This document shows positions 2,156 through 29,242 of a stretch of 35,607 bases of DNA, one piece after another (positions within the stretch are counted from its first letter, which is position 1; each line of letters opens with the position of its first letter). Made by a program: the position numbers and the translations under genes. The DNA is from Elusimicrobiota bacterium (GTDB taxonomy: Bacteria > Elusimicrobiota > Elusimicrobia > JACQPE01). The notes beneath the pieces are model-generated. The model was given only the letters and a program-made list of their open reading frames with translations, did no database searches and was not told the origin of the DNA. Location: contig JACQPE010000162.1 in NCBI GenBank assembly GCA_016207685.1, positions 1 through 35,607 on the forward strand. Reading direction: 5' to 3'.

Positions 2156-3349
2156 ATGAGCATCAAATATCATTTGGCCGAAGACACCATTGATCACAAG
2201 GACATTGATCGTCTGGTCGCTTGGCTTAAAACGTACCCTCGTTTGACCAAGGGCCAAGTGACGGTTCAATTTGAGGAAAAGTGGAGCCAGTGGCTCGGTC
2301 AGAAATATTCGCTTTTTAATAACTCCGGTTCGTCGGCCAATCTGTTGATGTATGACACGCTTTTGCTGTCCAACCGCTTGAAAAATAAGAAAGTTGTCGT
2401 GCCGAGCGTGGGCTGGGTCACGACCGTAGCCCCGGCGATTCAGTTCGGCTTTGAGCCCTTGATGTGCGAGGCGGACCAAGACACGTTTGGTTTAGACTTG
2501 AATCATTTGGAAGATTTGCTCAAAAAGCATAACCCCAGCACCGTAGTTTTGGTACAGGTTTTGGGCGTGCCCCACAAGATGATGGAGATCATGGCCTTAA
2601 AGGAAAAATACGGCTTTTTCTTGTTGGAGGATGCCTGCGCGGCTCTGGGCGCGTCCTACCAAGGGCAGAAAGTGGGGACCTTCGGTGAAATGTCGAGTTT
2701 CTCTTTTTATTTCGGCCATCAGTTTTCTACGATCGAAGGAGGCATGGTATCAACGAACGACAAGCAATTTTTGGATATCCTGCGCATGATGCGCAGCCAC
2801 GGCTGGAGCAAAGATTTGGACCGTCCGGCGCATGAAGCCTTGGTGCAAAAATATCAGGTTAATGACTTTCACTCCCCCTTTGTTTTTTACGAGCCCGGTT
2901 TTAACTTGCGCTCGACGGACCTGCAGGCTCATATCGGCTTGGGCCAATTGGAGAAAGCCGAATGGATCATCTCGCGCCGCCAGGAGAATCACTCGTGTTA
3001 CATCAGGCATTTGGGGTCGAAGTTTTATGTTCAAAAGCCCCCTGCGGGTTCGGTGACATGCAGTATTTCTTTCGGGATGTTGGCTCATTCCACCGAGGAG
3101 CGCCAGGCCATTGTCAATGCCTTGGTTGCCAACGGCATCGAAACCCGCATTTTCTCCGCGGGCAACCTGGGACTGCATCCTTTTTGGTACAACCGCTATG
3201 GAAAATTTAGCGCGCCCATGGCCGATAAAATTCACCATTGCGGCCTTTTTTTGCCGAATAATCCCTCTCTTAAACTTGAAGATGTTGATTTTATTTCTCA
3301 AGTGGTGTTGAATTCAGTTCAAAAATCCAACCTGGCCGTAGCGGCATGA
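2156..3349 (+). CDS. ColD-like PLP-dependent sugar 3-dehydratase (DegT/DnrJ fold)
   Basis: The protein (397 aa from ATG 2156) has the DegT/DnrJ/EryC1/StrS aminotransferase fold. The N-S-G-S-S-A-N substrate/PLP loop is near residue 57 and the PLP-nitrogen Asp lies in L-L-E-D-A-C near residue 159. The Schiff-base Lys expected in the S-F-x-x-x-K-x-x-x-x-x-E-G-G block is His here: F-Y-F-G-H-Q-F-S-T-I-E-G-G, His at about residue 188. That replacement is the hallmark of 3-dehydratases such as ColD (GDP-4-keto-6-deoxymannose 3-dehydratase) and RfbH/E1, which remove the C3 hydroxyl instead of transaminating. I see no obvious Fe-S cysteine cluster of RfbH type, so ColD is the closer model. The next gene overlaps by ATGA and resembles the reductase that follows ColD. 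Likely product: a nucleotide-linked 4-keto-3-deoxy or 3,6-dideoxy sugar. The nucleotide (GDP or CDP) is not known. Confidence 0.82.
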   Translation: MSIKYHLAEDTIDHKDIDRLVAWLKTYPRLTKGQVTVQFEEKWSQWLGQKYSLFNNSGSSANLLMYDTLLLSNRLKNKKVVVPSVGWVTTVAPAIQFGFEPLMCEADQDTFGLDLNHLEDLLKKHNPSTVVLVQVLGVPHKMMEIMALKEKYGFFLLEDACAALGASYQGQKVGTFGEMSSFSFYFGHQFSTIEGGMVSTNDKQFLDILRMMRSHGWSKDLDRPAHEALVQKYQVNDFHSPFVFYEPGFNLRSTDLQAHIGLGQLEKAEWIISRRQENHSCYIRHLGSKFYVQKPPAGSVTCSISFGMLAHSTEERQAIVNALVANGIETRIFSAGNLGLHPFWYNRYGKFSAPMADKIHHCGLFLPNNPSLKLEDVDFISQVVLNSVQKSNLAVAA

Positions 3350-4281
3350 GCCTTTTGGTTACGGGTGGCAACGGCCTTTTGGGCCAGGCGCTGCGCGAAT
3401 TGTGCCCCAGCGCCGTCTTTGCCGCGCGCCGCGATGCCGATCTGACTGATCTTTCTCAAACCAGGGCGCTTTTCACGCGCCATAAGCCTTCTCAGGTGAT
3501 CCATGCCGCGGCTTTGGTGGGAGGCGTGAAGCGCAACGCTGAAAAGAACGCGGATTTCGCTTTAGTCAATTCTCAAATTAACGCCAATGTGCTCACGGCC
3601 TCGCGTGAAACCGGGGTAACCAGGCTTCTCTCATTTCTGGCCAGCTGCGCTTTCGGCGGTTGGGAAAAGGGCAAATTAAGCGAAGACGATCTCTACCAAG
3701 GCGCACCCTATGACGGCAATTCGGGCTACGGCTATTCTAAGCGCATGCTCGACGTCGAATTGCGGCTCATCAGCCGCCAGTACGGGGTTCATTACTCCAG
3801 CTTGACGCCGGTGAGCATGTATGGGCCTTATGATAATTGGGACTTGGAAGATGGTCACGTGGTGAGCGCCTTGATCCATAGATGTTATCTCGCGAAGCGC
3901 GATGGGAAGGCCCTGGATGTTTGGGGCAAAGGCGAGGCGGTGCGTCAATTCATTTTTGTCAAGGACGTCGCCCGCTTGGCGCTTGAGACCTTGCGCCGCA
4001 ATGACGATTCGGAAACAATGATCGTGGCCGCAGGCGGCGGCATCGCCATCAAGGATTTGGTCTCTGAAGTAGCGAAGGCCATGGATTTCAGGGGACCGGT
4101 CCATTTTGACGCCGCAAAACCCGAGGGACAGAAAATCAAGGTTTTAGAAAGCAGAATTTTTAAGTCGCGTTATCCTGATTTTGAATTTACGCCCCTGGAC
4201 CAAGGGCTGCGCTTCACCGTGGATTGGTTTTTGAAAAATATCGCCCAAGAGACCGGCAAAACGGAGGCCTCCGTTCAATGA
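3346..4281 (+). CDS. GDP-L-fucose synthase-like NAD(P)-dependent sugar epimerase/reductase
   Basis: An extended short-chain dehydrogenase of 311 aa. The Rossmann motif T-G-G-N-G-L-L-G is at residues 6-13. The catalytic Y-x3-K is Y128/K132 in G-Y-G-Y-S-K. C101 and H171 match the Cys and His that act in epimerisation by GDP-fucose synthase (Fcl/WcaG) and its colitose counterpart ColC. The catalytic Ser position appears to be Ala99 next to Ser100, so the active site may be altered or the alignment off by one. It overlaps the 3-dehydratase by 4 nt (ATGA), implying coupled translation. Role (inference): epimerise and/or reduce the 4-keto-deoxysugar made upstream. It could instead act on ordinary 4-keto-6-deoxymannose. 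A 4,6-dehydratase (GMD) is not in the window. Confidence 0.8.
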   Translation: MSLLVTGGNGLLGQALRELCPSAVFAARRDADLTDLSQTRALFTRHKPSQVIHAAALVGGVKRNAEKNADFALVNSQINANVLTASRETGVTRLLSFLASCAFGGWEKGKLSEDDLYQGAPYDGNSGYGYSKRMLDVELRLISRQYGVHYSSLTPVSMYGPYDNWDLEDGHVVSALIHRCYLAKRDGKALDVWGKGEAVRQFIFVKDVARLALETLRRNDDSETMIVAAGGGIAIKDLVSEVAKAMDFRGPVHFDAAKPEGQKIKVLESRIFKSRYPDFEFTPLDQGLRFTVDWFLKNIAQETGKTEASVQ

Positions 4282-5225
4282 GCGCCGGCGCGTTGAATAT
4301 TTTAATCACCGGTGGAGCCGGGTACTTGGGTTCGACGCTTACGAAAATATTGCTTGACGTGGGCCATCGGGTGACGGTGTTGGATAATTTTCTTTTCGGC
4401 CAGGCCAGCCTTCTCGATTGTTGCGCATATGAAACTTTTAATGTTGTTCGGGGCGATAGCCGGGACGAGCGCCTCTTGATCGAGCTGCTCAAAGACAAGG
4501 ATGTGGTTATTCCATTGGCCGCCTTGGTCGGCGCTCCTTTGTGCGACCGGGATCGCGTGGCGGCGGAATCCACCAATACGGGAGCCGTGCGTTCCATCTG
4601 CAAATTAGCCGGCAAAACCCAGAGAATATTGTTTCCGACAACCAACAGCGGCTATGGCTTGGGGCAGGGCAACATGCACTGCACGGAAGAAACGCCGCTA
4701 AGCCCGATCTCGCTTTATGGCGAAACCAAGGCCCAGGCTGAAAAGGCCGTGTTGGACCGCGGCCATTCCATCACATTTCGGTTAGCCACGGTTTTTGGCG
4801 CGTCGCCGCGCATGCGGCTGGATTTGCTCGTCAACGATTTTGTTCACCGGGCCGTGCATGACCGGGCGGTCGTTATTTTTGAGGGCCATTTTAAGCGCAA
4901 TTACATTCATGTGCGCGACGTGGCCAAGGCTTTTGTTCACGGCATCAATCATTTTGAGGCCATGAAAAACAAACCTTACAATGTGGGACTCGAAGACGCC
5001 AATCTCTCTAAAACAGAGCTGTGCCAGGAGATACGGAAAATTATTCCCAATTTTATTTTTTTGGAAGCCCCTATCGGCGAGGACCCGGACAAGCGCAATT
5101 ACATCGTCTCGAACGCCCGAATTTTGGCGACGGGCTATCAGCCTGATTGGAGTCTTGAGCGCGGCATTCGGGAACTGGTCAAATGTTATAAAATACTTCG
5201 TAAATCCGTTTATGCCAACGTTTAG
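4278..5225 (+). CDS. NAD-dependent nucleotide-sugar epimerase/dehydratase
   Basis: The extended-SDR fold is clear: T-G-G-A-G-Y-L-G at residues 11-18 and Y147-G-E-T-K151 as the catalytic pair, in a 315-residue protein. I chose ATG 4278 because it overlaps the previous stop as ATGA and has GGAGG at 4263-4267; the frame is open further upstream but without support. The family includes UDP-sugar 4-epimerases, 4,6-dehydratases and reductases, and the sequence does not separate these. It lies between the Fcl-like reductase and the GHMP kinase. The Y-N-V-G block near residue 235 and N-Y-I-H-V-R-D near residue 211 are typical substrate-side motifs of sugar epimerases. Confidence 0.8.
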   Translation: MSAGALNILITGGAGYLGSTLTKILLDVGHRVTVLDNFLFGQASLLDCCAYETFNVVRGDSRDERLLIELLKDKDVVIPLAALVGAPLCDRDRVAAESTNTGAVRSICKLAGKTQRILFPTTNSGYGLGQGNMHCTEETPLSPISLYGETKAQAEKAVLDRGHSITFRLATVFGASPRMRLDLLVNDFVHRAVHDRAVVIFEGHFKRNYIHVRDVAKAFVHGINHFEAMKNKPYNVGLEDANLSKTELCQEIRKIIPNFIFLEAPIGEDPDKRNYIVSNARILATGYQPDWSLERGIRELVKCYKILRKSVYANV

Positions 5226-5244
5226 AAATCCTAATTAACCCCCG

Positions 5245-6342
5245 ATGATCATTACTCGAACGCCTTTTCGCGTTTCATTTTTCGGCGGCGGAACAGACTA
5301 TCCCGTTTGGTATGAGGAACATGGCGGGGCCGTGCTGGCGACGGCCATTGACAAGTATTGTTATATCACATGCCGTTACCTGCCGCCTTTTTTTGAACAT
5401 CGCACGCGTATCCTGTATTCCAAAATCGAAAACGTGAGGTCGCATGATGAAATTGAGCATCCGTCGGCGCGGGCGACGCTTGAGTTTATGAATATTTCGG
5501 AGGGTCTGGAGATTCATCATGACGGTGATTTGCCGGCGCGCACGGGCCTTGGGTCCAGTTCCGCTTTTACCGTGGGACTGCTTCACGCGCTTTATGCGCT
5601 TAAGAATACGATGCCTACCAAGCAAAAATTGGCTCAAGAGGCGATTCATATCGAGCAGAATATTCTTGGGGAGAACGTGGGCTGCCAAGACCAGATTTTG
5701 GCGGCTTATGGTGATTTTTGCCGGATTGATTTTCATCCCGCGCATAGGAATCGGACCGTCAATTTTACCGTGACACCGATGATTGTCAGCCGGACCCGCC
5801 GTCAAGAGATGCATGATCACCTGCTGCTATTTTTTACCGGATTTTCTCGTATCGCTTCGGAGGTGGCCAAAGAACAGGTGGACCGGACAAAGGAAAAGAC
5901 GCCGGAGTTGGCCACGATGCGCCAAATGGTGGACGAAGCGATCGGCATTTTAACGGGAACCGGCGACATCAAAGATTTCGGCCGGCTTTTAAATGAAAAT
6001 TGGAAAATCAAGCGCAGCTTGACCTCAAGGATTTCGACGCCTCAAATCGATCAAATTTATGAAACGGCCCTGCGCGCCGGAGCTTTGGGCGGCAAGCTTT
6101 TGGGCGCCGGAGGCGGAGGTTTTATGTTATTATTTGCTTCTCCGGACCGGCATCGGAAAATTAGAGAGCAATTGAATCAGTATATGTATGTTCCATTTTC
6201 TTTTGAGGATGGCGGGAGCCAGATTATTTTTTATCAACCGTCGCTCTATGAGGATTTCCATAAAAATCATTCCGGACCCCTATCCGGGCCGGGCCAGCAT
6301 TGGCGCCAAGAAAGTCTAAAGGAACCCAAGGAAGTTCAATAA
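5245..6342 (+). CDS. GHMP-family sugar kinase, HddA-like
   Basis: The protein (365 aa) begins M-I-I-T-R-T-P-F-R-V-S-F-F-G-G-G-T-D-Y-P, the usual start of D-glycero-D-manno-heptose-7-phosphate kinase (HddA)-type enzymes. The ATP-binding GHMP loop P-A-R-T-G-L-G-S-S-S-A is at residues 97-107 and the C-terminal glycine motif L-G-A-G-G-G-G-F near 286-293. Known relatives phosphorylate a sugar (phosphate) at C1 before nucleotide transfer. No heptose isomerase (GmhA), phosphatase (GmhB) or nucleotidyltransferase (HddC) is next to it. Those may lie elsewhere, or the substrate may not be heptose. It is followed by a TAATG 1-nt overlap with the E1 alpha gene. The ribosome site is weak, but the start agrees with the family. 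Confidence 0.85.
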   Translation: MIITRTPFRVSFFGGGTDYPVWYEEHGGAVLATAIDKYCYITCRYLPPFFEHRTRILYSKIENVRSHDEIEHPSARATLEFMNISEGLEIHHDGDLPARTGLGSSSAFTVGLLHALYALKNTMPTKQKLAQEAIHIEQNILGENVGCQDQILAAYGDFCRIDFHPAHRNRTVNFTVTPMIVSRTRRQEMHDHLLLFFTGFSRIASEVAKEQVDRTKEKTPELATMRQMVDEAIGILTGTGDIKDFGRLLNENWKIKRSLTSRISTPQIDQIYETALRAGALGGKLLGAGGGGFMLLFASPDRHRKIREQLNQYMYVPFSFEDGGSQIIFYQPSLYEDFHKNHSGPLSGPGQHWRQESLKEPKEVQ

Positions 6343-7364
6343 TGACCGCAGCCGTCCGTTCAGGCCAGCGCTCAAAATTACCGATGGGCTACGGTCGAAA
6401 AAAACTCACCAAGGAGGAGGGCCTGAAGCTCTACCGGCAACTTTTGCTGGCGCGATTATGCGAGGAAAAAATTAGGGAAGAATATTTTAACGATGAAATG
6501 AAAACACCCGTGCATTTAGGCATCGGGGGCGAAGCCATCGCCGTCGGTGTTTGTCACTGCCTGGCTCCCGGCACAAGAACTTTTGGCACATATCGCAATC
6601 ACACTCTCTATTTGACCAAAAGCGGCGATGTAGACGGATTTTTTGCGGAACTCTACGGCAGGGCAACGGGCCCGGGCAAGGGAAAGGCGGGATCCATGCA
6701 TTTAATGAATCCCCAAAAAGGATTGGTTGCGACCTCGGCCGTCGTGGCCACGACCGTGCCTTTGGCCGTGGGCGATGCCTTGGCCCAAAGTTATCTTAAG
6801 ACTGGCGCCATGTCCGTGGCCTTTTTCGGTGACGGCGCCGTTGAGGAGGGCGCATTCTGGGAGAGTTTGAATTTTGCCTGTTTGAAGCGGCTGCCGGTTT
6901 TGTTCGTGTGTGAAGACAACGATTTGGCTATTCATACGGCCAGGGCCCAGCGCCGGGGCTTTGCCTCATTAAGGAATACCGTGGCCACATATGATTGTCA
7001 TGCCGCGGAAGGCGACGGCGCCAGTGTAACGAATGTTATTCGTCTGACTCGCCAAGTGATGGGGCGCATGGCTAAAGACCCCAAGCCCGGATTTATTCGC
7101 TTGGCATATTTTCGTTTTTTAGAACATGTCGGACCCAGGGAAGATTTTGACGCGGGCTACAGGCCGCGCCCCCCTGAACAATTACTTCGAAAAATGGACC
7201 CGGTTGTACGCTTTGAAAAGGAATTGGTCCCCCTGGGCCTGCGCGAACGCGATCTTGCTCCCATCCGCGCTGAACTCAAGGCGCTGATTGACGCCGGCGT
7301 GGCCAAGGCAAAGGCCGCTCCGTTTCCGCAGGCGGCTGAACTCACGACGGATGTTTACGTCTGA
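6342..7364 (+). CDS. Thiamine-diphosphate-dependent dehydrogenase-type E1, alpha subunit
   Basis: The product (340 aa) matches the alpha subunit of pyruvate/2-oxoacid dehydrogenase E1 and acetoin dehydrogenase. The ThDP/Mg motif is intact: G163-D-G, 27 residues, then N193. The block H-L-G-I-G-G-E-A-I-A near residue 50 and G-K-G-K-A-G-S-M-H near 110 are family marks. Start ATG 6342 overlaps the kinase stop by one base and follows AAGGAAG; the longer frame from 6300 lies inside the kinase gene. No lipoyl E2 or E3 gene is present, so a role in central metabolism is unlikely. In avilamycin, aldgamycin and (with another ThDP enzyme, YerE) yersiniose pathways, ThDP enzymes add a two-carbon unit to a keto-sugar. 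By inference this pair could do the same with the upstream 3-deoxy-4-ketosugar. Confidence 0.85.
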   Translation: MTAAVRSGQRSKLPMGYGRKKLTKEEGLKLYRQLLLARLCEEKIREEYFNDEMKTPVHLGIGGEAIAVGVCHCLAPGTRTFGTYRNHTLYLTKSGDVDGFFAELYGRATGPGKGKAGSMHLMNPQKGLVATSAVVATTVPLAVGDALAQSYLKTGAMSVAFFGDGAVEEGAFWESLNFACLKRLPVLFVCEDNDLAIHTARAQRRGFASLRNTVATYDCHAAEGDGASVTNVIRLTRQVMGRMAKDPKPGFIRLAYFRFLEHVGPREDFDAGYRPRPPEQLLRKMDPVVRFEKELVPLGLRERDLAPIRAELKALIDAGVAKAKAAPFPQAAELTTDVYV

Positions 7365-8473
7365 TGCCCTCCGCAATATTGAAGTCTCAAACACCAGCGA
7401 AGCTATCGCTCAATGGTCATATGCCTGAAAGCGCCATCTCGATGATGCGCTATCGGGACGCTTTAAGTTTGGCGGTTCGGCGCGAAATGGAGCGCGACCC
7501 CAAAGTTTTCGTTTTTGGTTTAGACGTGCCGGATCATAAGAAGATTTTTGGCAGCACCAAGGGACTCTTGGAGCAATTCGGCGGCCAACGCTGCTTCGGA
7601 ACGCCGCTTTCGGAGGATGCGATGACCGGGGTGGCCCTGGGCGCCGCTTTGGCGGGCCTGCGTCCGGTGCACGTTCATATCCGCGTTGATTTTATGCTCT
7701 TGGCGATGAATCAAATTGCCAATATGATTTCTAATCTTGCCTACATGAGCGCGGGGTCTCTCAAAATTCCGCTTGTCTTGCGTGCCGTGATCGGCCGTGG
7801 GTGGGGGCAGTCGGCGCAGCACAGCAAGTCCCTGCATAGTATTTTTGCGCATATTCCGGGCCTTAAGGTTGTCATGCCGACCTCGCCGCAGGATGCCTAC
7901 AGCCTGACGCGAGCGGCCATTCGCGATGATAACCCCGTCATTATTTTAGAACACCGCTGGCTTTATGATATTGAGGGGGAGGTTAATGAGGCAAAGGTGG
8001 TTCCTTTGGGCGAGGCGCTGGTGCGCCGGCAGGGCCGGGACGCCACGGTTGTTGCCACCTCATGGATGAATATTGAAGCCATGAAGGCCGCCGAAGTGCT
8101 CGCGAAGCGCGGTGTTGAGCTTGAGGTGGTGGATGCCCGCTCTATCGCTCCTCTTGACGAGAACACGATCCTGCAGTCCGTAGAAAAAACCCAGCGATGC
8201 TTGGTAGCCGATTATGACTGGACTTATTGCGGTTTCAGCGCGGAGCTATCCGCGTTGATTCATCAGTGCTGCTTCGGGTCGTTGAAGCTTCCGGTGGAGC
8301 GTTTAGGGTTTGCTCCTGTTCCCTGTCCCACCACCCGCCCTTTGGAAAATTTATTTTATCCATCCGCCGTTTCGATTATCCGTTCGGTGGAGCGCATGCT
8401 TTCATTATCGGAGACTGATCTCGCGGGAGAGCAATTTTACAGCTACGAGCAAAAATTCAAGGGACCATTTTAA
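7364..8473 (+). CDS. Thiamine-diphosphate-dependent E1, beta subunit
   Basis: Partner of the preceding gene, overlapping it by one base (TGATG). The 369-residue protein has the transketolase pyrimidine-binding domain, with the ThDP-activating Glu at about residue 84 in P-L-S-E-D-A-M-T-G. Further E1-beta marks are the G-R-G-W-G-Q-S-A-Q-H-S-K-S block near residue 145 and V-V-M-P-T-S-P-Q-D-A-Y near 168. The C-terminal transketolase domain follows, with V-V-D-A-R-S-I-A-P-L-D. Length is slightly above the usual 325-340, owing to about 25 extra N-terminal residues; ATG 7421 (M20) is a possible shorter start. Donor may be pyruvate or a hydroxy-ketoacid. Acceptor unknown. Confidence 0.87.
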   Translation: MPSAILKSQTPAKLSLNGHMPESAISMMRYRDALSLAVRREMERDPKVFVFGLDVPDHKKIFGSTKGLLEQFGGQRCFGTPLSEDAMTGVALGAALAGLRPVHVHIRVDFMLLAMNQIANMISNLAYMSAGSLKIPLVLRAVIGRGWGQSAQHSKSLHSIFAHIPGLKVVMPTSPQDAYSLTRAAIRDDNPVIILEHRWLYDIEGEVNEAKVVPLGEALVRRQGRDATVVATSWMNIEAMKAAEVLAKRGVELEVVDARSIAPLDENTILQSVEKTQRCLVADYDWTYCGFSAELSALIHQCCFGSLKLPVERLGFAPVPCPTTRPLENLFYPSAVSIIRSVERMLSLSETDLAGEQFYSYEQKFKGPF

Positions 8474-8526: not shown

Positions 8527-9585
8527 TTGATCAATATATCCCTGCTTATTCCCACCAGAAATCGCCCTTTATTTATCCGGCGATTATTGAATTATTACGC
8601 TCAAGAGAAATTTTCAGGCCAATTGTTGATCGGCGACTCAAGCGATCCCGAAGAGGCCGCGTTGACGCGCCGGAGCATTGAGGAAGGCGGCCGGGGATTG
8701 CAGATTCGCTATGAAGAGTGTTTTGGCAAGCACATAGCGCCAACGGTCAAGCATCTGTTTAATTTTGTCGCAACGCCCTACGCGGCCATCTTGCCGGATG
8801 ATGATTTTTTAGTTCCCGCAGGCCTGAAACAGGCTGCGGCATTTTTGGATCAACATCCTGCCTGTGTGGGCGCGCAAGGCAAGGCTGTTATATATTCTTT
8901 AAAAACCCCCGGTCCTTTTGGCATTTTAGAATCAGTTGAGCCTTACGGTTTGCGACCGATTTCGGGAATGACGGCCAGCGCGCGATTGCGGCGTCACTTC
9001 CGTCAATATTCGGTGACGATGTTCGCTCTTTATCGCGCGGAAATTTTGGCATTAATGCATGATGACGTAGATCGGATTTGCGACGTGCCTTTTGCTTCCG
9101 AATTGCTGCCGTGTTGTTTATCGGTGATTTGCGGGGAGATCGCGCAGTTGCCCGGACTGTATTTGGCCCGCCAAGCGCACGGCAGCCGGTATTCGCTTTA
9201 TGATGTCTTTGATTGGTATGGCAGCATTAATTGGGCGCCGTCCTATCAATTTTTTCAGGAACGTTTAGTGAAAGAGCTCATGCGCCGCGATGGCCTAACG
9301 GCCCAGGCAGCCACTGCCCTTGTCAAGGAAACTTTTTGGGGGCATATTGTTAAAGGGATGGGGGAAAGTTGGTCCCAGCGTTACAGTGTCTCAACGTTAG
9401 TTTCTTGGAAAGAACGACTCCGGCAGTTGTTCAGGCGTTATTCGATGCCGCGTTATTTTTGGAATTACTTAAAGCCCCTGGTAACGGACCAAGGAGAGTT
9501 GACATGGCCGGCGCTTCAACGCCCCGCGTCGCCCTACTATCATGATTTCCGGTCCATCCAAAAGACCGTATCGGCTAATGTTTGA
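8527..9585 (+). CDS. TIGR00180-like glycosyltransferase, GT-A type
   Basis: The 352-residue protein starts I-N-I-S-L-L-I-P-T-R-N-R-P, the entry strand of GT2-like glycosyltransferases and especially the TIGR00180 group. The metal/nucleotide motif I-L-P-D-D-D-F is at about residues 88-94. There is no ATG near the start of the fold, so TTG 8527 is the likely start; GAGAG lies about 8 nt before it. It would transfer an activated sugar to the growing glycan at the inner face of the membrane. Donor and linkage cannot be told. A 53-nt gap without a clear promoter separates it from the E1 pair. It is the only clear GT-A enzyme in the window, which is few for so many sugar-making genes. Confidence 0.78.
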   Translation: MINISLLIPTRNRPLFIRRLLNYYAQEKFSGQLLIGDSSDPEEAALTRRSIEEGGRGLQIRYEECFGKHIAPTVKHLFNFVATPYAAILPDDDFLVPAGLKQAAAFLDQHPACVGAQGKAVIYSLKTPGPFGILESVEPYGLRPISGMTASARLRRHFRQYSVTMFALYRAEILALMHDDVDRICDVPFASELLPCCLSVICGEIAQLPGLYLARQAHGSRYSLYDVFDWYGSINWAPSYQFFQERLVKELMRRDGLTAQAATALVKETFWGHIVKGMGESWSQRYSVSTLVSWKERLRQLFRRYSMPRYFWNYLKPLVTDQGELTWPALQRPASPYYHDFRSIQKTVSANV

Positions 9586-9603: not shown

Positions 9604-11112
9604 GTGTCGAAACAGCTTGATGTTTTATTTATTCATCCCAATGCGGCGGAGAAAATTTATCAAGATTTAAGCCGTGATTTTTCTGCCATTGAACCCCCTA
9701 TTTGGGCGGCTTTGTTGGCAAACCATGTGCGCGCCAAGGGATATTCATGCGCTATTTTAGACTGCGAAGCCGAGCGCTTGAGCGTCGCCCAGGCGCTTGA
9801 GGCTATACATGACCGCAACCCCCGGTTGGCGGCATTTATTGTTTATGGCCAGCAACCTTCAGCGTCCACGCAAAACATGACCGGAGTCTCGTTATTAAAT
9901 AACGCGCTAAAGGATACTTATCCTCAATATCCAACCATAGCGATCGGCCTTTATCCATCCGCATTGCCTGAAAAAACTTTGCAGGATGAAAAATTGGATT
10001 TTGTCGGACAGGGCGAAGGCGCGGCGACTTTGGTCGGCCTTTGTCAGATTGATGATAAGGGCGACCATTCTCGCCTGCGCCAAGTCCCTGGATTATGGTA
10101 CCGGCACGACGGCGCTATTGTGGCGGCCGGCCCGGCGCATAATATTGCCCAAGAGATGCTGCCTCAAGAACTACCGGGCATGGCCTGGGACTTGCTGCCC
10201 ATGAAAAAATATCGAACCAGCAATTGGCATGCATTCACCAATAATAATCAGAATATGCCCTTTGCCTCGCTCTACACGAGCCTGGGGTGCCCTTTTAAGT
10301 GCAGTTTTTGCTGCATCAACGCTCCCTTCGGCGGGTCAAGTTTTCGCTATTGGAGTCCTGAATTTATTTTGGGTGAGTTTGACAAGATTGCCGATATGGG
10401 CATCATCAATGTCAAGATTGCGGATGAAATGTTCGTTTTGAATCAGAACCATTTCATGAAGGTTTGTCAGTTGATTGCCGGACGTGGGCACCATTTCAAT
10501 ATTTGGGCCTATGCCCGAATTGACACCGTTAAAGAGGAGTATTTGGAGACTCTCAAAAAAGCCGGGGTCAACTGGCTGGCCTTGGGTATCGAAAGCGGCG
10601 TCAAAACGGTTCGGGCTGATGTCATTAAGGGAAAATTTGAAGACATCAATATCCGTGACGTTGTTCAAAAAATCAGGGAGCATGGGATCAGCGTGATCGG
10701 GAATTTCATTTTCGGCTTGCCGGAAGATACCGAGGAGACGATGCGGCAGACCTTGGATTTGGCTTTGGAGATGAAATGCGACATGATTAATTTTTACAGC
10801 TGCATGGCTTATCCGGGGAGCGCCCTGCACCATGTGGCCCTAGAACAGAAATGGGAACTGCCGGATACCTACGCCGGTTATTCGCAGCATGCTTATGAAA
10901 CAAAACCTTTGCCCACCAAGCATATTTCCGCCAGAGAAGTTTTGGCGTTTAGGGATAGGGCGTTTACCCGCTATTTTTCGGACCCCGGGTATTTAGCTTT
11001 TGTCAAAGAAAAGTTCGGCCAAGAAACTTTCGACAATATCGCCGTCATGAACAGCCACAAATTACGCAGGGCTATCGTCGAAAAAAGCGCCGCGAGCGCC
11101 CTGTCTGTTTAG
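9604..11112 (+). CDS. B12-binding-type radical SAM protein
   Basis: The 502-residue protein has an N-terminal Rossmann-like domain (about 1-160) in the position of a cobalamin-binding domain, then the radical SAM cluster motif C229-x3-C233-x2-C236 in L-G-C-P-F-K-C-S-F-C. Further radical SAM marks are the W-L-A-L-G-I-E-S-G block and a G-x-I-x-G-x-x-x-F-G-L-P-E strand. Start is GTG 9604 with GGAGG at 9594-9598. Relatives methylate unactivated carbons or remodel carbon skeletons. Here a sugar or lipid-carrier modification is likely, but the substrate is unknown. The cobalamin-binding His signature D-x-H-x-x-G is not visible, as in many class B enzymes. The second radical SAM gene follows. Confidence 0.8.
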   Translation: MSKQLDVLFIHPNAAEKIYQDLSRDFSAIEPPIWAALLANHVRAKGYSCAILDCEAERLSVAQALEAIHDRNPRLAAFIVYGQQPSASTQNMTGVSLLNNALKDTYPQYPTIAIGLYPSALPEKTLQDEKLDFVGQGEGAATLVGLCQIDDKGDHSRLRQVPGLWYRHDGAIVAAGPAHNIAQEMLPQELPGMAWDLLPMKKYRTSNWHAFTNNNQNMPFASLYTSLGCPFKCSFCCINAPFGGSSFRYWSPEFILGEFDKIADMGIINVKIADEMFVLNQNHFMKVCQLIAGRGHHFNIWAYARIDTVKEEYLETLKKAGVNWLALGIESGVKTVRADVIKGKFEDINIRDVVQKIREHGISVIGNFIFGLPEDTEETMRQTLDLALEMKCDMINFYSCMAYPGSALHHVALEQKWELPDTYAGYSQHAYETKPLPTKHISAREVLAFRDRAFTRYFSDPGYLAFVKEKFGQETFDNIAVMNSHKLRRAIVEKSAASALSV

Positions 11113-11185: not shown

Positions 11186-11191
11186 ATATTG

Positions 11192-12691
11192 ATGAAAGTA
11201 ACATTCGGTTATCATAGTTGGACGGGCGAGTATGGACTTTTCGGCCACTTTGCCAAAAGGAATTCAACATGGCCGCCCCTTAATCTGGCGTTGCTTGGCG
11301 CTATTGTGGAGGCCAGCGGACACAAGGCCATGATTATTGATGGCGAGGCAATGGGCCTTAAAGCCGATAAATTGGCCAAGGCCATCATTGAATCGAAACC
11401 GGATATCGTCGGCCTAACTTGTTATAGCCCGTTTTTTCATTTGAGCACGGATGTCGCCAAAGCGGTCAAAAAATTAGATCCGAATATGCCCATTATGGTG
11501 GGCGGGCCGCATCTGACTATCATGAAGGAGAAGGCGATGTTGCCGCATTTTGATTATGGATTTATCGGCGAAACGGAAAAATCTTTACCCGCTTTTCTTG
11601 AAGCTTTTCAAACCGACCGCGACTTTTCTAAAGTCCACGGTTTGATGTATCGAAAGGGCGAGGAAATTGTCAATACCGGCGAGCCTCAATGGGTCGAGGC
11701 TGAGTCTGCGACCAAAGGAATCAATATTGGCAAGTATTATCCGCTTGATGAGTTTCCTCTTCCGGCCAGACACCTCTTGCCAATGAACAAATATCGTTTG
11801 GGAACAATGCATGGTCGGCGGCATTTCACCTCTATTCAAACCATGCGGGGTTGCCCTTGGACATGTATTTTTTGCGCATCAGCAGCTTTGAAAACGACGA
11901 GGGTCGTCATGCGAAGCCCTAAGTCCGTGGTTGATGAAATGGTCAAAGTCAAAAGAGATTTTCCTTTCATTGACCATTTTTATGTGGTTGATGACGTTTT
12001 GACCCTCTGGCCCAAGCATATCAGGGAAATTTGCGATCGAATCAACGCCGAGGGATTAAAAATTACCTTCGAAGGCAGCACCCGGGCAAACCTGGTTGAT
12101 AATGAACTTATTAAATACATGGCCAAGACCGGCCTTGTCAGGCTGTCTTTTGGACTGGAAACCGTTGATCCTCAAATGCGCGAAACCATGCAAAAGAAAG
12201 TTCCGATGGAAGCTTACGTTAAGGCTAACCGTATCTGCGCTGATAACAATGTCGAGGCCATGAATTCGATGATGTTGGGGCTTCCCGGGGAAACCAAGGA
12301 GACCATCAGAACAACTCTCCAATGGCTAAGAAATGCCCGGGATGTTAAACAGGCCAATTTTGCCATTGCGATCCCATATCCGGGAACGGAATTTCACGAT
12401 ATGGCGATTAATGGGACGCATGGCGTCGAGCTGCTGTCCGAGGACTTTTCGGAATACTTGCGCTATGGCTCGGCCGTGACCAAAATCGGAGAGCTCACCC
12501 CCAAGGACTTGATTGATCTTCAGAACGAGGGTTTCGTGAGCATTTATTCGGCGCCTTGGCGCTGGATGCCCGTTTGGCATAAACACGGGACAATAGGGTT
12601 TCTTCTCATGATGTGGCGTGTCGTCAAACTTTGGAAGCGCAAGTTTTTTGAAGCCGCGCAGCCATTCAGGGTTCATCCCGGGGTTCCATAA
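11192..12691 (+). CDS. B12-binding radical SAM protein
   Basis: The 499-residue protein has a cobalamin-type N-terminal domain (about residues 1-135, with the V-G-G-P-H-L-T loop near 103) and the Fe-S motif C221-x3-C225-x2-C228 in R-G-C-P-W-T-C-I-F-C. The C-terminal part carries S-F-G-L-E-T and a glycine-rich M-L-G-L-P-G-E strand typical of the TIM barrel. It is similar in layout to the preceding radical SAM protein but clearly diverged, so they probably act on different steps. A putative promoter lies just upstream. Possible roles are C-methylation or methylene bridging of a deoxysugar or of the lipid anchor; none can be chosen from sequence. Confidence 0.83.
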   Translation: MKVTFGYHSWTGEYGLFGHFAKRNSTWPPLNLALLGAIVEASGHKAMIIDGEAMGLKADKLAKAIIESKPDIVGLTCYSPFFHLSTDVAKAVKKLDPNMPIMVGGPHLTIMKEKAMLPHFDYGFIGETEKSLPAFLEAFQTDRDFSKVHGLMYRKGEEIVNTGEPQWVEAESATKGINIGKYYPLDEFPLPARHLLPMNKYRLGTMHGRRHFTSIQTMRGCPWTCIFCASAALKTTRVVMRSPKSVVDEMVKVKRDFPFIDHFYVVDDVLTLWPKHIREICDRINAEGLKITFEGSTRANLVDNELIKYMAKTGLVRLSFGLETVDPQMRETMQKKVPMEAYVKANRICADNNVEAMNSMMLGLPGETKETIRTTLQWLRNARDVKQANFAIAIPYPGTEFHDMAINGTHGVELLSEDFSEYLRYGSAVTKIGELTPKDLIDLQNEGFVSIYSAPWRWMPVWHKHGTIGFLLMMWRVVKLWKRKFFEAAQPFRVHPGVP

Positions 12692-14796: not shown

Positions 14797-16821
14797 ATGT
14801 ATTTCGGATTGGTTATCACGGTCGCCGGCCTGTTCACTATCTTGTTGGCGGCAGCATCCCGCGACGTCATGTTTTATGCGTTAGACAGTGATACGGAGAA
14901 ACAAACTAGAGCCGCGGCCGGAATTAATGAGTGGAAATGGCCCTCTGATATGCACCGGTTTGCAGGGGGTAAGGCGTATATGAAGGATGCGGGAATCCTA
15001 GGCGTCGCTTTAATGCAGAGACTTCGCCGTGACCGCCAGGGAGCCTTCCCAATTCATCTTTTGTGCTACCTTTCCAATGCAACGGCCGCGATTTTTCTTT
15101 ATTTGATCGCTTCGCATTATTGGGACGCCAAAATTGGCGCCGCGCTGGCTGTGCTTTTCATGACTTCTTTTTGGCCGCACCAAGTCGCCTTAATGGGTGG
15201 TTTCCAAACATTGGCTCATGCCTTGCTTCTTGTTGCCGTTTATTGTTTCCAAGCCGCTGAAAACGGCTCGTTCTTTATCCAGGGAAGCGCTTATTTGGCC
15301 GGAGGCGTTGCCATGGGATTTTTGATTTTTGCATCCGCTTCAAGCAGGAAGTATTTTCCTTTGGCTGCGGGCGCATTCTTTTGGAGTCAACGCAGCAATC
15401 TTATTCCCATGCGGCAAGCCGTAGCCGCATTTGAGCAAACGTTGGTTTTGGAAAAATTGATTCTTGTGGGATCGATGGCGGCATTGTTTATCTTGCTCGG
15501 TGTTATTTATTTCGGGTTTGATTCTTTTGTTACGGCTCTTTATGAGGGCCGGGGACCGAAGTGTTTGCGTCCGATTGTTTCGGGACAACGCAGCCGGGAG
15601 CTTTCATTTTATCTGGATAAAAAAAGAAGCGTCATGAAGGCCATGGGATGGGGCGGGTTGGGCTTGTGGAGTTTGCTGGCAGTGTCTTTGGTGTTCACGA
15701 AAAGCGCCGTCAATTATTGGGCTCAAGCGTTGGTCGCGCTGGGAATGATTGCCGTTATAGGAGCGTTAATTTTTCCCAATGTCATTGAGAACGTCAAAAG
15801 TTTCATTGGGTACTGGGACAGCTACTCGATGAATCCACATTTTCAATTTTATATCGATTTTTTTGCCAAAAAAAATATCCGGATTACGGGGCAGACCAGA
15901 GGAGCTGGCTGGCGCTGGCTTCCCGTATTTTTTTGGAGAATGACCCCCGTTCCTTTTTTGCTCACCATCGTATTGACGGGCATTTGGATGATCTTAGCCG
16001 CCTCTGGGTTTCTCCGGCAGGACTCTCCCGGAGAGATTGTTTTGCTCGTCGCGCTTGGTTTGTCACCGGTCCTTTTTGGGGAATTGACAGGATCGCCGCA
16101 GTTGGCCCGCCCCTATTTTCCCGCATTGACCGGATTGTTTATGCTCATTGGATTTTCTTTGTTCCGGCTCTCGCCTGTTGCGGGAGATACGTTATGGTTG
16201 TTGCTTTCCGGAGTCATTGCCGTGAGCGCCATGTGGAATTGCCGGATTTTTTTAAAAGACGTTTGGCCGGCAAGGATGGCTGCTCGAGAGTTGCACCGGG
16301 TATTGGGCCGGATGGGGATTAAGAAATTTTATACTTATGACACGCCTTTTAATGACGCCTTAGTCTTTGTCTGGCCCGCTTATATTCGAAAAAAATATGA
16401 TATTCAATTTATTAAAAGCGCCCATGAACCCGAGGACGGTTATATTGTTTTGCCTGGAATGAGCGCCAAAGCCTTAAACATGGAGTCGCAGCGCGTGGCC
16501 TATGAGGGGGGCGATTTCAAGAATGATCCCATCATCGGTGCGCTCGTGGCGCGCCGGCTCATTGACCGGTGCTCGGTTGCCACGTTTCAAACCTTTGGCA
16601 GCAGCAGGATTTGGGCTCAGGAAAGCGAAGTGATGACTTATCGCGATCTTATTTTGAAAGAAGTCACTGACCATGACCGATGGCTTGGTTTGGCGCGAAT
16701 TTTGGATGTTTCAAAATTAAGGGCCGTTCTTGAATTGGACCGTAGCCAAGAAAAAATGAAAGAGAGCATTGTTGCATCGTCCCATCTTGGCATGGCGATT
16801 GAACACGGGGCGCGTGCTTGA
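14797..16821 (+). CDS. Large multi-pass membrane protein, possible GT-C glycosyltransferase
   Basis: The 674-residue protein has many hydrophobic segments over roughly residues 1-490 (for example about 1-20, 88-106, 114-150, 165-185, 222-248, 285-330, 380-410 and 415-480). A soluble C-terminal region of about 190 residues follows. An acidic loop after the first helix and the layout of helices recall GT-C enzymes (ArnT/PMT type), which use lipid-phosphate sugars at the outer membrane face. I do not see a decisive motif, so this is tentative. It lies 7 nt after the exporter and 7 nt before the APS kinase gene, which points to a role in assembly or transfer of the glycan outside the membrane. 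Confidence 0.6.
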   Translation: MYFGLVITVAGLFTILLAAASRDVMFYALDSDTEKQTRAAAGINEWKWPSDMHRFAGGKAYMKDAGILGVALMQRLRRDRQGAFPIHLLCYLSNATAAIFLYLIASHYWDAKIGAALAVLFMTSFWPHQVALMGGFQTLAHALLLVAVYCFQAAENGSFFIQGSAYLAGGVAMGFLIFASASSRKYFPLAAGAFFWSQRSNLIPMRQAVAAFEQTLVLEKLILVGSMAALFILLGVIYFGFDSFVTALYEGRGPKCLRPIVSGQRSRELSFYLDKKRSVMKAMGWGGLGLWSLLAVSLVFTKSAVNYWAQALVALGMIAVIGALIFPNVIENVKSFIGYWDSYSMNPHFQFYIDFFAKKNIRITGQTRGAGWRWLPVFFWRMTPVPFLLTIVLTGIWMILAASGFLRQDSPGEIVLLVALGLSPVLFGELTGSPQLARPYFPALTGLFMLIGFSLFRLSPVAGDTLWLLLSGVIAVSAMWNCRIFLKDVWPARMAARELHRVLGRMGIKKFYTYDTPFNDALVFVWPAYIRKKYDIQFIKSAHEPEDGYIVLPGMSAKALNMESQRVAYEGGDFKNDPIIGALVARRLIDRCSVATFQTFGSSRIWAQESEVMTYRDLILKEVTDHDRWLGLARILDVSKLRAVLELDRSQEKMKESIVASSHLGMAIEHGARA

Positions 16822-16828
16822 GGATGAA

Positions 16829-17359
16829 ATGGTAATTTGGGTGACGGGATTATCAGGCGCGGGGAAAACCACGCTGTGCCGCGCGCTCAAAGAGCTGCTT
16901 CGGCCCAAGCTGCCGCAGGTTGTGATGATTGACGGCGACATTGTGCGCGAAACCTTTGATGACGGTTTGGGATATGGCGAAAAGGACCGGTGGGTTCAAG
17001 TGGCGCGTATTCAGCGCATGGCTAGAATGTTGTCGGACCAAGGTCTTATTGTGCTGGCCGCGGTGCTTTATTCGCACCCTGAACTTCTTCAATGGAACCG
17101 CCGCGAGATACGGTCTTATTACGAGATTTATCTGAAAACTTCCCTAGACGCCTTGCGCCATCGCGATTACAAGGGGATTTATGCCCAAGCGGACGCCGGT
17201 CAAATGCGTGAGGTCGTGGGCTTGGACATTGCGTGGCATGAGCCGACGTCGCCGGATTTGGTTATTCATCAGGACCACCCTGAAGAAGCTTCTCAACTGG
17301 CCCGCAAGGTGGTTGCCTCAATTCCTGAATTAAATCTGTTGTTGGAGCCGGTTTCATGA
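16829..17359 (+). CDS. cysC: Adenylylsulfate (APS) kinase
   Basis: The protein (176 aa from ATG 16829) is a P-loop kinase with G-L-S-G-A-G-K-T-T at residues 7-15, D-G-D-x-V-R-E near residue 36, and the family-typical D-Y-K-G-I-Y-A-Q-A block near residue 110. It phosphorylates APS to PAPS, the sulfate donor of sulfotransferases. The middle region Y-S-H-P-E-L-L-Q-W-N-R differs from the usual F-x-S-P-x-R of CysC. A few CysC homologues in capsule loci (Campylobacter Cj1415) phosphorylate a CDP-phosphoramidate instead. The adjacent ATP sulfurylase, PAP phosphatase and sulfotransferase make the APS role far more likely. The start was chosen because GAGG is 5 nt upstream and the preceding gene ends at 16821. 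Confidence 0.85.
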   Translation: MVIWVTGLSGAGKTTLCRALKELLRPKLPQVVMIDGDIVRETFDDGLGYGEKDRWVQVARIQRMARMLSDQGLIVLAAVLYSHPELLQWNRREIRSYYEIYLKTSLDALRHRDYKGIYAQADAGQMREVVGLDIAWHEPTSPDLVIHQDHPEEASQLARKVVASIPELNLLLEPVS

Positions 17360-18432
17360 ACAAGAGCCTATCCTTAAGCCGCTATCAATACTTGGAGTTT
17401 GAAAAAATCGCCTTGGGCGCCTTGGCCCCTTTAAAGGGATTTATGACGAGCCCAGAGTTTGAAAGCGTGGTTGAAACCATGCGTTTGCCCGCCGGCGAGG
17501 TGTTTCCATTGCCCGTGATTTTGGATGTTTCCAAGGAAGACGCTCTGGCGCTCTCCGGCGTATCTGTCGTGAATTTGATCTACGATGGAGTTGTGGTCGG
17601 GGAACTCGAGCCTGCCGGCGTTTTTCAATGCGACAAAAAGGCCGTAGCGCACAAGGTCTATGGCACAAGTGACCCGGCGCATCCCGGGGTAGCCTATTTT
17701 CTGGCAACGAAAGAGTTTTTTGTGGGCGGCGCCGTCCGTCTTTTGCAGAGGGCGCGTTTTGAGTTTTCTGATTATGAATTCACACCCCAGGAAATGCGGG
17801 CGTATTTTCAAACCCAGGGATGGAAAACAGTGGTTGGTTTTCAAACGAGAAACGTTCCGCACCGGGCTCACGAGTATTTGCTTCGATGCGCGCTGGAGCA
17901 GGCGGACGGCTTGTTTGTGCAGCCCTTGGTGGGATTCAAGAAAAGTGGCGATTACGCTCCAATGGCTATTCTTAAGGCCTATGAAACGCTCATTCAAGGA
18001 TTCCTTCCTCAAAACAGGGTTAAACTAGGCATTCTCTCGACAGCCATGCGTTACGCCGGCCCCCGCGAAGCGGTGTTCCACGCCATTGTCCGGCGCAATT
18101 ACGGCTGCACGCATTTTATCGTTGGCCGCGATCATGCGGGCGTGGGATCGTATTACGCCAAATATGCCGCGCACGATATGGTGAACCGTTATAATGGAGA
18201 TTTGGGGATCACTATTTTGAAATTTTACGGCCCCTTTTATTGCCGCCGTTGCGCCGCGATTGCAACCGAACGGACGTGTCCTCATTATCAACGAGAGCCT
18301 CAAGAAATTCAGGAAATCAGCGGCACTTTAATGCGCCAAATGCTTTCTGGGAGCGGCCAAGTTCCATCGAATTTGATGCGTCCGGAAATCGTGGCAAGCC
18401 TCCGGGGTATGCCCATTTTTATCGAGGAGTGA
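17356..18432 (+). CDS. sat: ATP sulfurylase (sulfate adenylyltransferase), homo-oligomeric type
   Basis: This makes APS from sulfate and ATP. The 358-residue protein has the ATP-site motif Q163-T-R-N-V-P-H-R-A-H-E (two HxxH-type histidines at 168 and 171) and G257-R-D-H-A-G. Cys296, Cys299, Cys308 and His310 match the zinc site of prokaryotic single-chain ATP sulfurylases. It is shorter at the N terminus than many family members. It overlaps cysC by ATGA and is followed 4 nt later by the pyruvate kinase-like gene. With cysC it feeds PAPS to the sulfotransferase downstream; no APS or PAPS reductase is present, so the sulfate is meant for ester formation, not assimilation. Confidence 0.92.
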   Translation: MNKSLSLSRYQYLEFEKIALGALAPLKGFMTSPEFESVVETMRLPAGEVFPLPVILDVSKEDALALSGVSVVNLIYDGVVVGELEPAGVFQCDKKAVAHKVYGTSDPAHPGVAYFLATKEFFVGGAVRLLQRARFEFSDYEFTPQEMRAYFQTQGWKTVVGFQTRNVPHRAHEYLLRCALEQADGLFVQPLVGFKKSGDYAPMAILKAYETLIQGFLPQNRVKLGILSTAMRYAGPREAVFHAIVRRNYGCTHFIVGRDHAGVGSYYAKYAAHDMVNRYNGDLGITILKFYGPFYCRRCAAIATERTCPHYQREPQEIQEISGTLMRQMLSGSGQVPSNLMRPEIVASLRGMPIFIEE

Positions 18433-18436
18433 CTTC

Positions 18437-19855
18437 ATGAGCAGAACAAAAATTATCGCCACGATCGGACCTAAAACTAATAACAGCGATTCTTTGCTGG
18501 CATTGCGAGAGGCCGGCATGAGCGCGGCGCGTTTAAATGGGTCTCATGCGGATGCGGCCTGGCACCGGTCAGCGATCGCTTTGCTGCGCGAAATTGTTCC
18601 TGATGTGCCGGTTTTGCTTGATATTCCCGGGCGCAAAATTAGAACAGGCGTCATGGAGCAGTTAGTCGAATTTAGCCCAGGAGAAACGGTCGTGTTTACG
18701 TCGCGCCCCGATATGAACGGACATGGAAAAGTGCCGGTTAATCATAACCGTTTTCATGAGATCGTTTCTGTGGGCCATGAGTTTTTGGTGGATGACGGAC
18801 GGCTGTGTTTTACGGTGACCTCGATCAAGGGAGAGGAAGTCTTTTGTCGGGCTCACTCACAAGGAATGATTTCAAGCCGGAAAGGAATTAATTTACCTTC
18901 ATTGGGACATGATCTCGAGGTTTTGACGGCCAAGGATCAGGAAATGTTGATGTTTGCCAAAGAAACAGGCGTTGATTTTATCGGCATCAGCTTTGTGGAT
19001 AGCGCCCTGCAAGTGGAGAAATGGCGGGAGATTTTAGGTTCTCATGGCCCCTCAATCGTCTCTAAAATTGAAAACCAGCCCGGCTTAAACAATGTCGAAG
19101 AGATTTTTGGGGTTTCAGACGCCATCATGATTGACCGCGGCGATTTGTCCGCGGAGACATCCATCGAGAGCGTGATTTTATCCCAAAAGAAAATTTTGCG
19201 GTCCGCGCGGCGGCATTGCAAACCGGTGATTGTGGCGACCGAAATGCTTCATTCCATGATTGAGCATAGCCTGCCCACGAAAGCCGAAATCAGCGATATC
19301 AGTAACGCGGTCATTGACGGCGCTTCGGCGTTGATGCTCTCCGGAGAAACAGCCATTGGGTTGCATCCTGTGGAGGCAGTGCGCATGATGCGGCGCATTG
19401 CTTCGGCTGTTGAGGAGTCTCGCGAGACCCCCTGGAGCCAGGCCTCCCAGAAAGCGCTAAGCGTGCCGGAGGCCATGGGCGAGGCGATTGCTCTTTTGTG
19501 CCGGCATTTGCCGGTCACTAAAATCGTGGCGATCACGATTTCAGGTTATGCGGCGCGCTCAATCGCGGCTTTTGCGCCGCGCCAGCGAGTGTTGGCGGTC
19601 AGCAACAATGCGGTTAATGCGCGACGATTTAATTTGCTTCCCGGTGTCACCGGCGTGCACTATGACATTGAATTTTCCCGAGTCAATACGAACCATGTGC
19701 CGCAGTGCCTTAAGCAATTATGGCTTGATGAAAAAATCGTTGATGATGATTTGATTTTGGTGACCGCGGTGGGATACCCGAGGTCGGGCAATCGAATGAA
19801 CATGATTGAGACGCACTATGTGCGTGACCTAAGGGAAGGTTTGGGATGGTGTTAA
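18437..19855 (+). CDS. Divergent pyruvate kinase
   Basis: The 472-residue protein has normal pyruvate kinase length and order of domains. Conserved catalytic residues are visible: R32, N34 and S36 (A-A-R-L-N-G-S-H), D62, K210 and E212 (S-K-I-E-N), D236 (R-G-D-L) and T268 (V-A-T-E-M-L). Several usually fixed positions have changed: N-F-S-H is N-G-S-H, the D-x-x-G-P-x-I-R loop reads D-I-P-G-R-K-I-R, V-A-R-G-D-L-G is I-D-R-G-D-L-S, and A-S-F-V-R is I-S-F-V-D. It sits between ATP sulfurylase and PAP phosphatase with only 4 nt and a 10-nt overlap. It may be a dedicated enzyme that supplies ATP for PAPS synthesis or pyruvate for the ThDP enzyme, or it may act on another enol-phosphate. The last is speculative. 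Confidence 0.82.
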   Translation: MSRTKIIATIGPKTNNSDSLLALREAGMSAARLNGSHADAAWHRSAIALLREIVPDVPVLLDIPGRKIRTGVMEQLVEFSPGETVVFTSRPDMNGHGKVPVNHNRFHEIVSVGHEFLVDDGRLCFTVTSIKGEEVFCRAHSQGMISSRKGINLPSLGHDLEVLTAKDQEMLMFAKETGVDFIGISFVDSALQVEKWREILGSHGPSIVSKIENQPGLNNVEEIFGVSDAIMIDRGDLSAETSIESVILSQKKILRSARRHCKPVIVATEMLHSMIEHSLPTKAEISDISNAVIDGASALMLSGETAIGLHPVEAVRMMRRIASAVEESRETPWSQASQKALSVPEAMGEAIALLCRHLPVTKIVAITISGYAARSIAAFAPRQRVLAVSNNAVNARRFNLLPGVTGVHYDIEFSRVNTNHVPQCLKQLWLDEKIVDDDLILVTAVGYPRSGNRMNMIETHYVRDLREGLGWC

Positions 19856-20688: not shown

Positions 20689-20695
20689 AGCATAG

Positions 20696-28257: not shown

Positions 28258-28259
28258 AT

Positions 28260-29180: not shown

Positions 29181-29242
29181 GTCGAGAATTGGTTAATTAG
29201 ATTCCGTTGGATACCAAAGAAAATCACCCACAATCCACATTA

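Follow-up and report, generated by a model that had tools for sequence, protein, structure and literature searches.

Two-carbon (C2) branches in antibiotic pathways have been assigned to E1-type pairs of thiamine diphosphate (ThDP) enzymes such as AviB1/B2, Pau11/12, and KbDH-alpha/beta (alpha-KADH2), for which pyruvate as donor is backed by feeding, knockout, and in vitro data, and split transketolases have been proposed as hydroxyacetyl transferases acting on ketosugars (PMC12247030, PMC4425429). Here, we analyze a contig of an Elusimicrobiota bacterium (JACQPE010000162.1 of assembly GCA_016207685.1), taken in its entirety of 35.6 kb and referred to as the window, from a draft genome of 2.37 Mb that is 90% complete. 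At positions 2156 to 8473 it carries six open reading frames (ORFs), all on the forward strand and in the same direction, in which genes for a ColD-type 3-dehydratase, two short-chain dehydrogenases/reductases (SDRs), and a GHMP kinase are followed by an E1alpha/E1beta gene pair. This block probably supplies a surface glycan with a nucleoside diphosphate (NDP)-activated 3-deoxy sugar that carries a two-carbon branch, the pair serving as a ThDP carboligase that works without an E2 component. A previous sequence-only reading of this DNA had already invoked E1-type C2 branching as a precedent, and the antibiotic literature bears it out. Antibiotic pathways and YerE already exemplify this type of reaction; the surface-glycan setting is new.

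Like the alpha-KADH2 enzymes (AviB1/AviB2, Pau11/Pau12, KbDH, and those of aldgamycin), the window pair consists of two E1-type subunits, has no E2 or E3 beside it, and is encoded next to deoxyketosugar genes. The described enzymes belong to antibiotic clusters, whereas the window type occurs in surface-glycan loci of more than 15 phyla, together with ColD- or RfbH-type 3-dehydratases and heptose-activation genes, and the comparison with AviB, Pau, and KbDH is made here at the level of their published descriptions. YerE of yersiniose synthesis shares with our proposal a ThDP enzyme that, in the making of a Gram-negative glycan, places a two-carbon branch on a 4-keto-3,6-dideoxy nucleotide sugar, but is a single-chain, flavin-containing enzyme of the decarboxylase type acting on a cytidine diphosphate (CDP) sugar, while the window encodes a two-chain enzyme of the pyruvate dehydrogenase (PDH) type (E1_dh plus Transket_pyr) whose acceptor is probably a heptose. 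The split-gene transketolases proposed for miharamycin and amipurimycin are likewise ThDP carboligases encoded by deoxyketosugar genes, and in five Elusimicrobia loci such enzymes occupy the position of the E1 pair; they differ from the E1 pair in architecture and in donor (hydroxyacetyl). The guanosine diphosphate (GDP)-colitose pathway resembles the window in its His-type pyridoxal phosphate (PLP) 3-dehydratase, ColD, and its Fcl-like SDR. Colitose itself is unbranched and derives from GDP-mannose and, unlike the product of the window block, involves neither a GHMP kinase nor a ThDP enzyme. Finally, four activation families of the GDP-(6-deoxy)heptose pathway (GmhA-HddA-GmhB-HddC-DmhA) recur in E1-linked loci, and the described pathway contains, to our knowledge, neither a 3-dehydratase nor a ThDP enzyme.

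The E1alpha-type subunit (6342 to 7364; PF00676, E1_dh, 3e-42) carries an EHVGP loop and, as had been read from the sequence alone, an intact ThDP motif (GDG...N), and of its active-site columns H87 is near-invariant and H262 invariant. The E1beta-type subunit (7364 to 8473; PF02779/PF02780, Transket_pyr plus Transketolase_C) keeps the Glu84 and His153 columns, which are conserved throughout the family in our alignment. A Pfam scan of window ORFs agrees with the claimed lack of E2 and E3 in those covered, and the genome's only E2, which is also its sole 2-oxoacid_dh match, lies on another contig (C85) in an operon of a LipA-like gene, E1alpha, E1beta, E2, and E3, where the names LipA and E3 were assigned by eye. 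Sequence identity between the window pair and the E1s of this operon is only 26% for alpha and 35% for beta, and neither window subunit reaches the NCBIfam cutoffs for pyruvate or branched-chain dehydrogenase E1. In E1beta trees with the C-terminal tail kept or removed, and in an E1alpha tree, the E1s of glycan loci fall on one side with support in the SH-like approximate likelihood ratio test (SH-aLRT) of 99 to 100 and 98, respectively; the opposite side holds all E2-linked E1s and L140, a PDH-type pair of Azospirillum with no E2 in view. The references were plasmid-borne E1s, the own-genome E1, two E1s from relatives, and, for E1beta only, human PDHB; the trees contain long rows and warrant some caution. 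One entry (L123_6499), a split-transketolase C-terminal subunit caught by a loose profile, was excluded from the second E1beta tree. Two E1 pairs from Streptomyces plasmid clusters, ending in FAGPY and FIGPY, fall on the glycan-locus side, and the one Streptomyces plasmid E1 checked has the EHVGP loop. On plasmid pSGRIFU1 of Streptomyces griseofuscus, an EHVGP/FAGPY E1 pair (L131, 13049 to 15095) lies by a condensation-domain protein and butyrolactone regulators, with no sugar genes in view.

The window E1beta has a C-terminal extension of about 22 residues (8405 to 8470) that ends in FKGPF, and most of the E2-less group shows the same arrangement, an F-x-GPF end following an extension of this length. 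The xGPF tail is present in 99 of 122 E1beta copies without an E2 nearby (99 of 121 when L123_6499 is left aside) and in 0 of 13 copies with one (Fisher P = 5e-9, indicative only, as the rows are related). Because E2 docks at the C-terminal end of E1beta in the known E1-E2 structures (1w85/1w88), the tail may block this docking. In an AlphaFold2 model of the E1beta monomer, the fold matches that of a plain PDH E1beta, and the tail is modeled at low confidence, with a predicted local distance difference test score of about 44 in the last block. A role for the window pair as the housekeeping PDH was rejected, since its subunits group apart from the genome's own E1 and from every E2-linked E1 tested in the trees and the genome has another E1, that of C85, beside E2 and E3. 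It is also very improbable that the pair is a second pyruvate or branched-chain dehydrogenase E1 that borrows the E2 and E3 of the genome: its active site is fully conserved and one complete E1/E2/E3 operon is at hand, but both subunits stand apart from E2-linked E1s with support of 98 to 100, a conserved tail extends what is presumably the E2-binding end of E1beta, and sugar genes surround the pair in phyla of every sort.

Within the class, 98 relatives were compared, and in several families the dehydratase, E1 pair, GalE-like SDR, and GHMP kinase have close counterparts that are linked to one another. An E1beta alignment scan of 84,980 genomes gave 80 loci, or 77 after removal of three duplicates, which span more than 15 phyla, including Omnitrophota, Myxococcota, Planctomycetota, Pseudomonadota, Chloroflexota, Nitrospirota, and Verrucomicrobiota. 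As these loci were collected via E1beta, the following counts describe the company of the E1 pair and not the frequency of the block: within about 10 kb we observe the same kinase in 46 of the 77 loci, a DegT-family protein with a catalytic His in 42, an HddC-like nucleotidyltransferase in 34, the same GalE-like SDR in 32, the radical S-adenosylmethionine (SAM) protein described below in 30, and a GMD-like SDR in 29. No E2 was found within 10 kb in any of the 77 nonredundant loci. Chance linkage was rejected, given how this gene set reappears from phylum to phylum. A Nitrospira locus (L055) even follows the window order, from dehydratase, Fcl-like SDR, second SDR, and kinase to E1alpha, E1beta, and radical SAM protein, with a nucleotidyltransferase inserted before E1alpha. 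In the cultured Solidesulfovibrio magneticus RS-1, plasmid pDMC1 carries the order radical SAM-NUDIX-kinase-E1alpha-E1beta-Fcl-DegT-SDR-nucleotidyltransferase, where the E1 homologues lie at 27415 to 29438, the His dehydratase is RfbH-like, and E1beta lacks the tail, and Azospirillum plasmids carry E1alpha-E1beta-DegT.

This recurrence bears on whether the E1 pair merely neighbors the 3-dehydratase and serves another sugar of the cluster, for instance that of the nonulosonic-acid-like gene set at 21706 to 29177, which we consider improbable. The contig does contain NeuB, NeuC-like, and CMP-transferase-like genes, and some E1 clades have no His-type DegT nearby, but the block shared across phyla includes the His-type DegT, the GalE-like SDR, and the GHMP kinase and not NeuB-type genes, and in two loci (L080 and L028) the dehydratase directly adjoins the E1 genes.

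The PLP protein of the window (2156 to 3349; PF01041, 9e-70) has ColD (2gms, E = 2e-48) as its best PDB match, ahead of every aminotransferase. The replacement of its active-site Lys by His was correctly noted from the sequence: His188 (codon at 2717 to 2719) shares a column with ColD His188, and in the PDB alignment this column holds H in 2gms and N in 3b8x. The protein is without the cysteines of a [2Fe-2S] cluster, showing no C-x-C motif past the HG motif, unlike RfbH/E1. The catalytic His is present in all window-type orthologues examined, and the protein is predicted to be a ColD-type 3-dehydratase of an NDP-4-keto-6-deoxy sugar. Among the DegT-family proteins in E1-linked loci (n = 76), 57 have His and 19 have Lys at the catalytic position, the Lys type being found mostly next to separate E1 clades; of the 48 E1beta copies near a window-type GalE-like SDR, 45 also have a His-type DegT. 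The His-type proteins are of two kinds, one ColD-like and one RfbH-like (cluster DegT8). The DegT8 member tested scores highest against RfbH (278 bits, under the cutoff of 423), and RfbH-like clustered cysteines occur in 10 His-type proteins of E1-linked loci. Because two distinct types of 3-dehydratase occupy one place, 3-deoxygenation appears to be part of the pathway. The window genome encodes four full-length DegT proteins, two of them with His, namely that of the window and an RfbH on contig C121. The latter contig holds a separate RfbF, RfbG-like, and RfbH set (CDP-3,6-dideoxyhexose route; L174) with no ThDP enzyme in view.

A further line of evidence comes from the exchange of the E1 pair with another carboligase. 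The least biased set consists of 13 genomes of the class that have the window-type dehydratase (69 to 76% identity, window aside). In seven of these (G000, G023, G071, G077, G079, G084, and G093) an E1 pair is close to the dehydratase, and in five (G003, G014, G021, G026, and G040, with loci L198, L199, L201, L203, and L204) a split transketolase pair lies 3 to 11 kb from it; the contig of the 13th (G039) does not extend far enough for a decision. G021 additionally has an E1 pair of a different clade 9 kb away, and at L031, where the E1 pair is of another clade, a split transketolase is found at the locus instead. Split transketolases are also present elsewhere in these genomes, and their replacement of the E1 pair in the same setting is suggestive, not proof. 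The exchange fits a branching role, because both types of ThDP enzyme have been named as ketosugar-branching enzymes.

The same exchange can be turned toward a ketol transferase, by which the E1 pair would transfer a hydroxyacetyl unit, donated by hydroxypyruvate or a ketose phosphate, to a ketosugar, or extend a sugar at C1. We regard this as unlikely, even though a split transketolase, itself a proposed hydroxyacetyl-branching enzyme, stands in five Elusimicrobia genomes where seven others have the E1 pair, and a transaldolase and an SIS protein lie upstream at L080. By similarity, the window E1s come nearest to pyruvate dehydrogenase E1, pyruvate is the donor used by the branching enzymes of E1 type described so far (PMC12247030), and loci with E1 pairs and with transketolases may make different branches. 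A PDH-type pair working in place of YerE, as the sequence-only reading had it, is one option, with a hydroxyacetyl branch of the transketolase type as another.

As for the sugar backbone, representatives of E1-linked clusters resemble heptose enzymes at scores that all lie under the curated cutoffs: GmhA with 207 bits (cutoff, 265), GmhB with 162 (178), and HddC with 130 (300). One locus (L098) holds all four HddA-, HddC-, GmhA-, and GmhB-like genes by the GalE-like SDR, Fcl-like SDR, E1 pair, dehydratase, and radical SAM protein. In the window genome, HddC-like genes are found on two contigs, C121 and C157; C121 also encodes a second HddA-like kinase, and the edge of C79 truncates a GmhA-like gene. 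A heptose backbone seems slightly likelier than a hexose, since HddA-, HddC-, GmhA-, and GmhB-like genes are linked to the pair and hexose routes from glucose-1-phosphate or mannose-1-phosphate need no such kinase. The idea of a branched 3-deoxysugar built by a PDH-type pair is supported in part, by the E1 phylogeny, the recurrent 3-dehydratase, and the transketolase exchange, with the backbone corrected to a likely heptose. Tentatively, an undescribed class of nine-carbon sugars, C2-branched 3-deoxy heptoses with acetyl or hydroxyacetyl branches, might be part of surface glycans in many uncultured phyla, made by a modular route that interchanges two ThDP carboligases (E2-less E1 pairs and split transketolases) as well as two types of 3-dehydratase.

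Pfam and NCBIfam assignments of the genes of the block (DegT/DnrJ/EryC1/StrS, Fcl-like SDR, second SDR, GHMP kinase, and E1alpha/beta) agree with the sequence-only reading, and its overlaps of 4, 4, 1, and 1 nt and single 19-nt gap (5226 to 5244) match the ORF coordinates exactly. The Fcl-like SDR (3346 to 4281; NCBIfam GDP-L-fucose synthase, 181 bits, cutoff 500) is a probable ketosugar epimerase and/or reductase that keeps Tyr128 and Lys132 as well as Cys101 and His171, the latter two being epimerase-type residues. The GalE-like SDR (4278 to 5225; Pfam/NCBIfam domain scan), here called EPI, is 50 to 72% identical across most dehydratase-containing loci. Its motif, TTNSGYG...YxxxK, is without the acidic residue expected of a 4,6-dehydratase, and such a function was on this ground judged unlikely. 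The GHMP kinase (5245 to 6342) has sugar and heptose kinases as its closest PDB structures (4usk and 3k85, E of about 2e-35) and probably phosphorylates a heptose phosphate at C1; it may work like HddA, though under the curated cutoff for that family (134 bits versus 600). Downstream on the same strand follow a TIGR00180-type glycosyltransferase (8527 to 9585; TIGR04440, 132 bits, above the cutoff of 70), a candidate for the transfer of the product, and a radical SAM protein with a B12-binding domain (9604 to 11112), whose top PDB match is the deoxygenating AprD4 (6fd2, 1e-24). The radical SAM gene, with orthologues in about 30 linked loci, belongs to the conserved block and was missing from the module as first drawn. 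A second radical SAM gene with a B12-binding domain (11189 to 12691) recurs less often.

From the gene content, residues, linkage, phylogeny, tail, and exchange we infer a donor, an acceptor, an order of steps, and a product. The sugar, which is probably a heptose, would be activated by the HddA-like kinase together with a nucleotidyltransferase encoded elsewhere; a 4-keto-6-deoxy intermediate would form, and the ColD-type enzyme would strip the C3 hydroxyl. E1alpha/beta would take up two carbons, most likely by decarboxylating pyruvate, and the ThDP-bound carbanion would attack the ketone at C4, so that a tertiary alcohol bearing an acetyl branch would result and neither E2 nor lipoate would be required. 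The SDRs could then epimerize the ring, reduce the ketone of the branch, or do both, and the glycosyltransferase would hand the sugar on.

Several observations weigh against this proposal. No obvious 4,6-dehydratase for the module is found on the window contig and no GMD above cutoff in the window genome, whose CDP-glucose 4,6-dehydratase-like gene belongs to the separate RfbF-RfbG-RfbH set. The Fcl-like SDR has Ala99 at an alignment position that is occupied by the catalytic Ser in most relatives, which makes its reductase role in the window strain uncertain. EPI is not in view at 12 of the 57 His loci, and some E1 clades lie beside Lys-type aminotransferases or without any DegT, so that the acceptor must vary. 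In addition, no assay of a glycan-locus member of this E1 family was found in the open-access literature searched.

Tail-bearing E1 clades by Lys-type DegT aminotransferases (SLHPLKN) are observed at L027, L033, L036, L037, L041, L042, and L146, suggesting branched amino sugars; some of these loci also hold HldE- or SIS-like genes. At L069, L071, and L075 to L078 (Reyranella and others), two different E1 pairs lie a few kilobases apart with kinase and GMD-like genes and no DegT, perhaps for two successive branchings.

E2-less E1 pairs, described as makers of C-C bonds from actinobacterial antibiotic clusters, thus emerge as a widespread glycan enzyme of more than 15 phyla with a recognizable signature, the xGPF tail of E1beta and the EHVGP loop of E1alpha. 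In the open-access literature searched, we found no description of this E1 family, its signature, its breadth, or the transketolase exchange, and nothing relevant on an E1 pair in O-antigen, heptose, or colitose loci. Our results suggest that many annotations as "pyruvate dehydrogenase E1" in glycan loci are wrong. The family also offers many candidates for ThDP enzymes that accept ketones and could serve in the synthesis of tertiary alcohols, and the block on the plasmid of cultured S. magneticus makes its function directly testable.

Elsewhere in the window, genes for APS kinase, ATP sulfurylase, and pyruvate kinase are followed by a weak sulfotransferase match (16769 to 21709, with the last at 20696 to 21709), pointing to a possible sulfated glycan. 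The adjacent set at 21706 to 29177, with NeuB, NeuC-like epimerase, CMP-sugar transferase-like, PHP, ATP-grasp, and SDR genes, probably makes a nonulosonic-acid-like sugar of unusual make-up. Finally, a HisF/HisH-like pair is located within the glycan cluster at 29207 to 30954.

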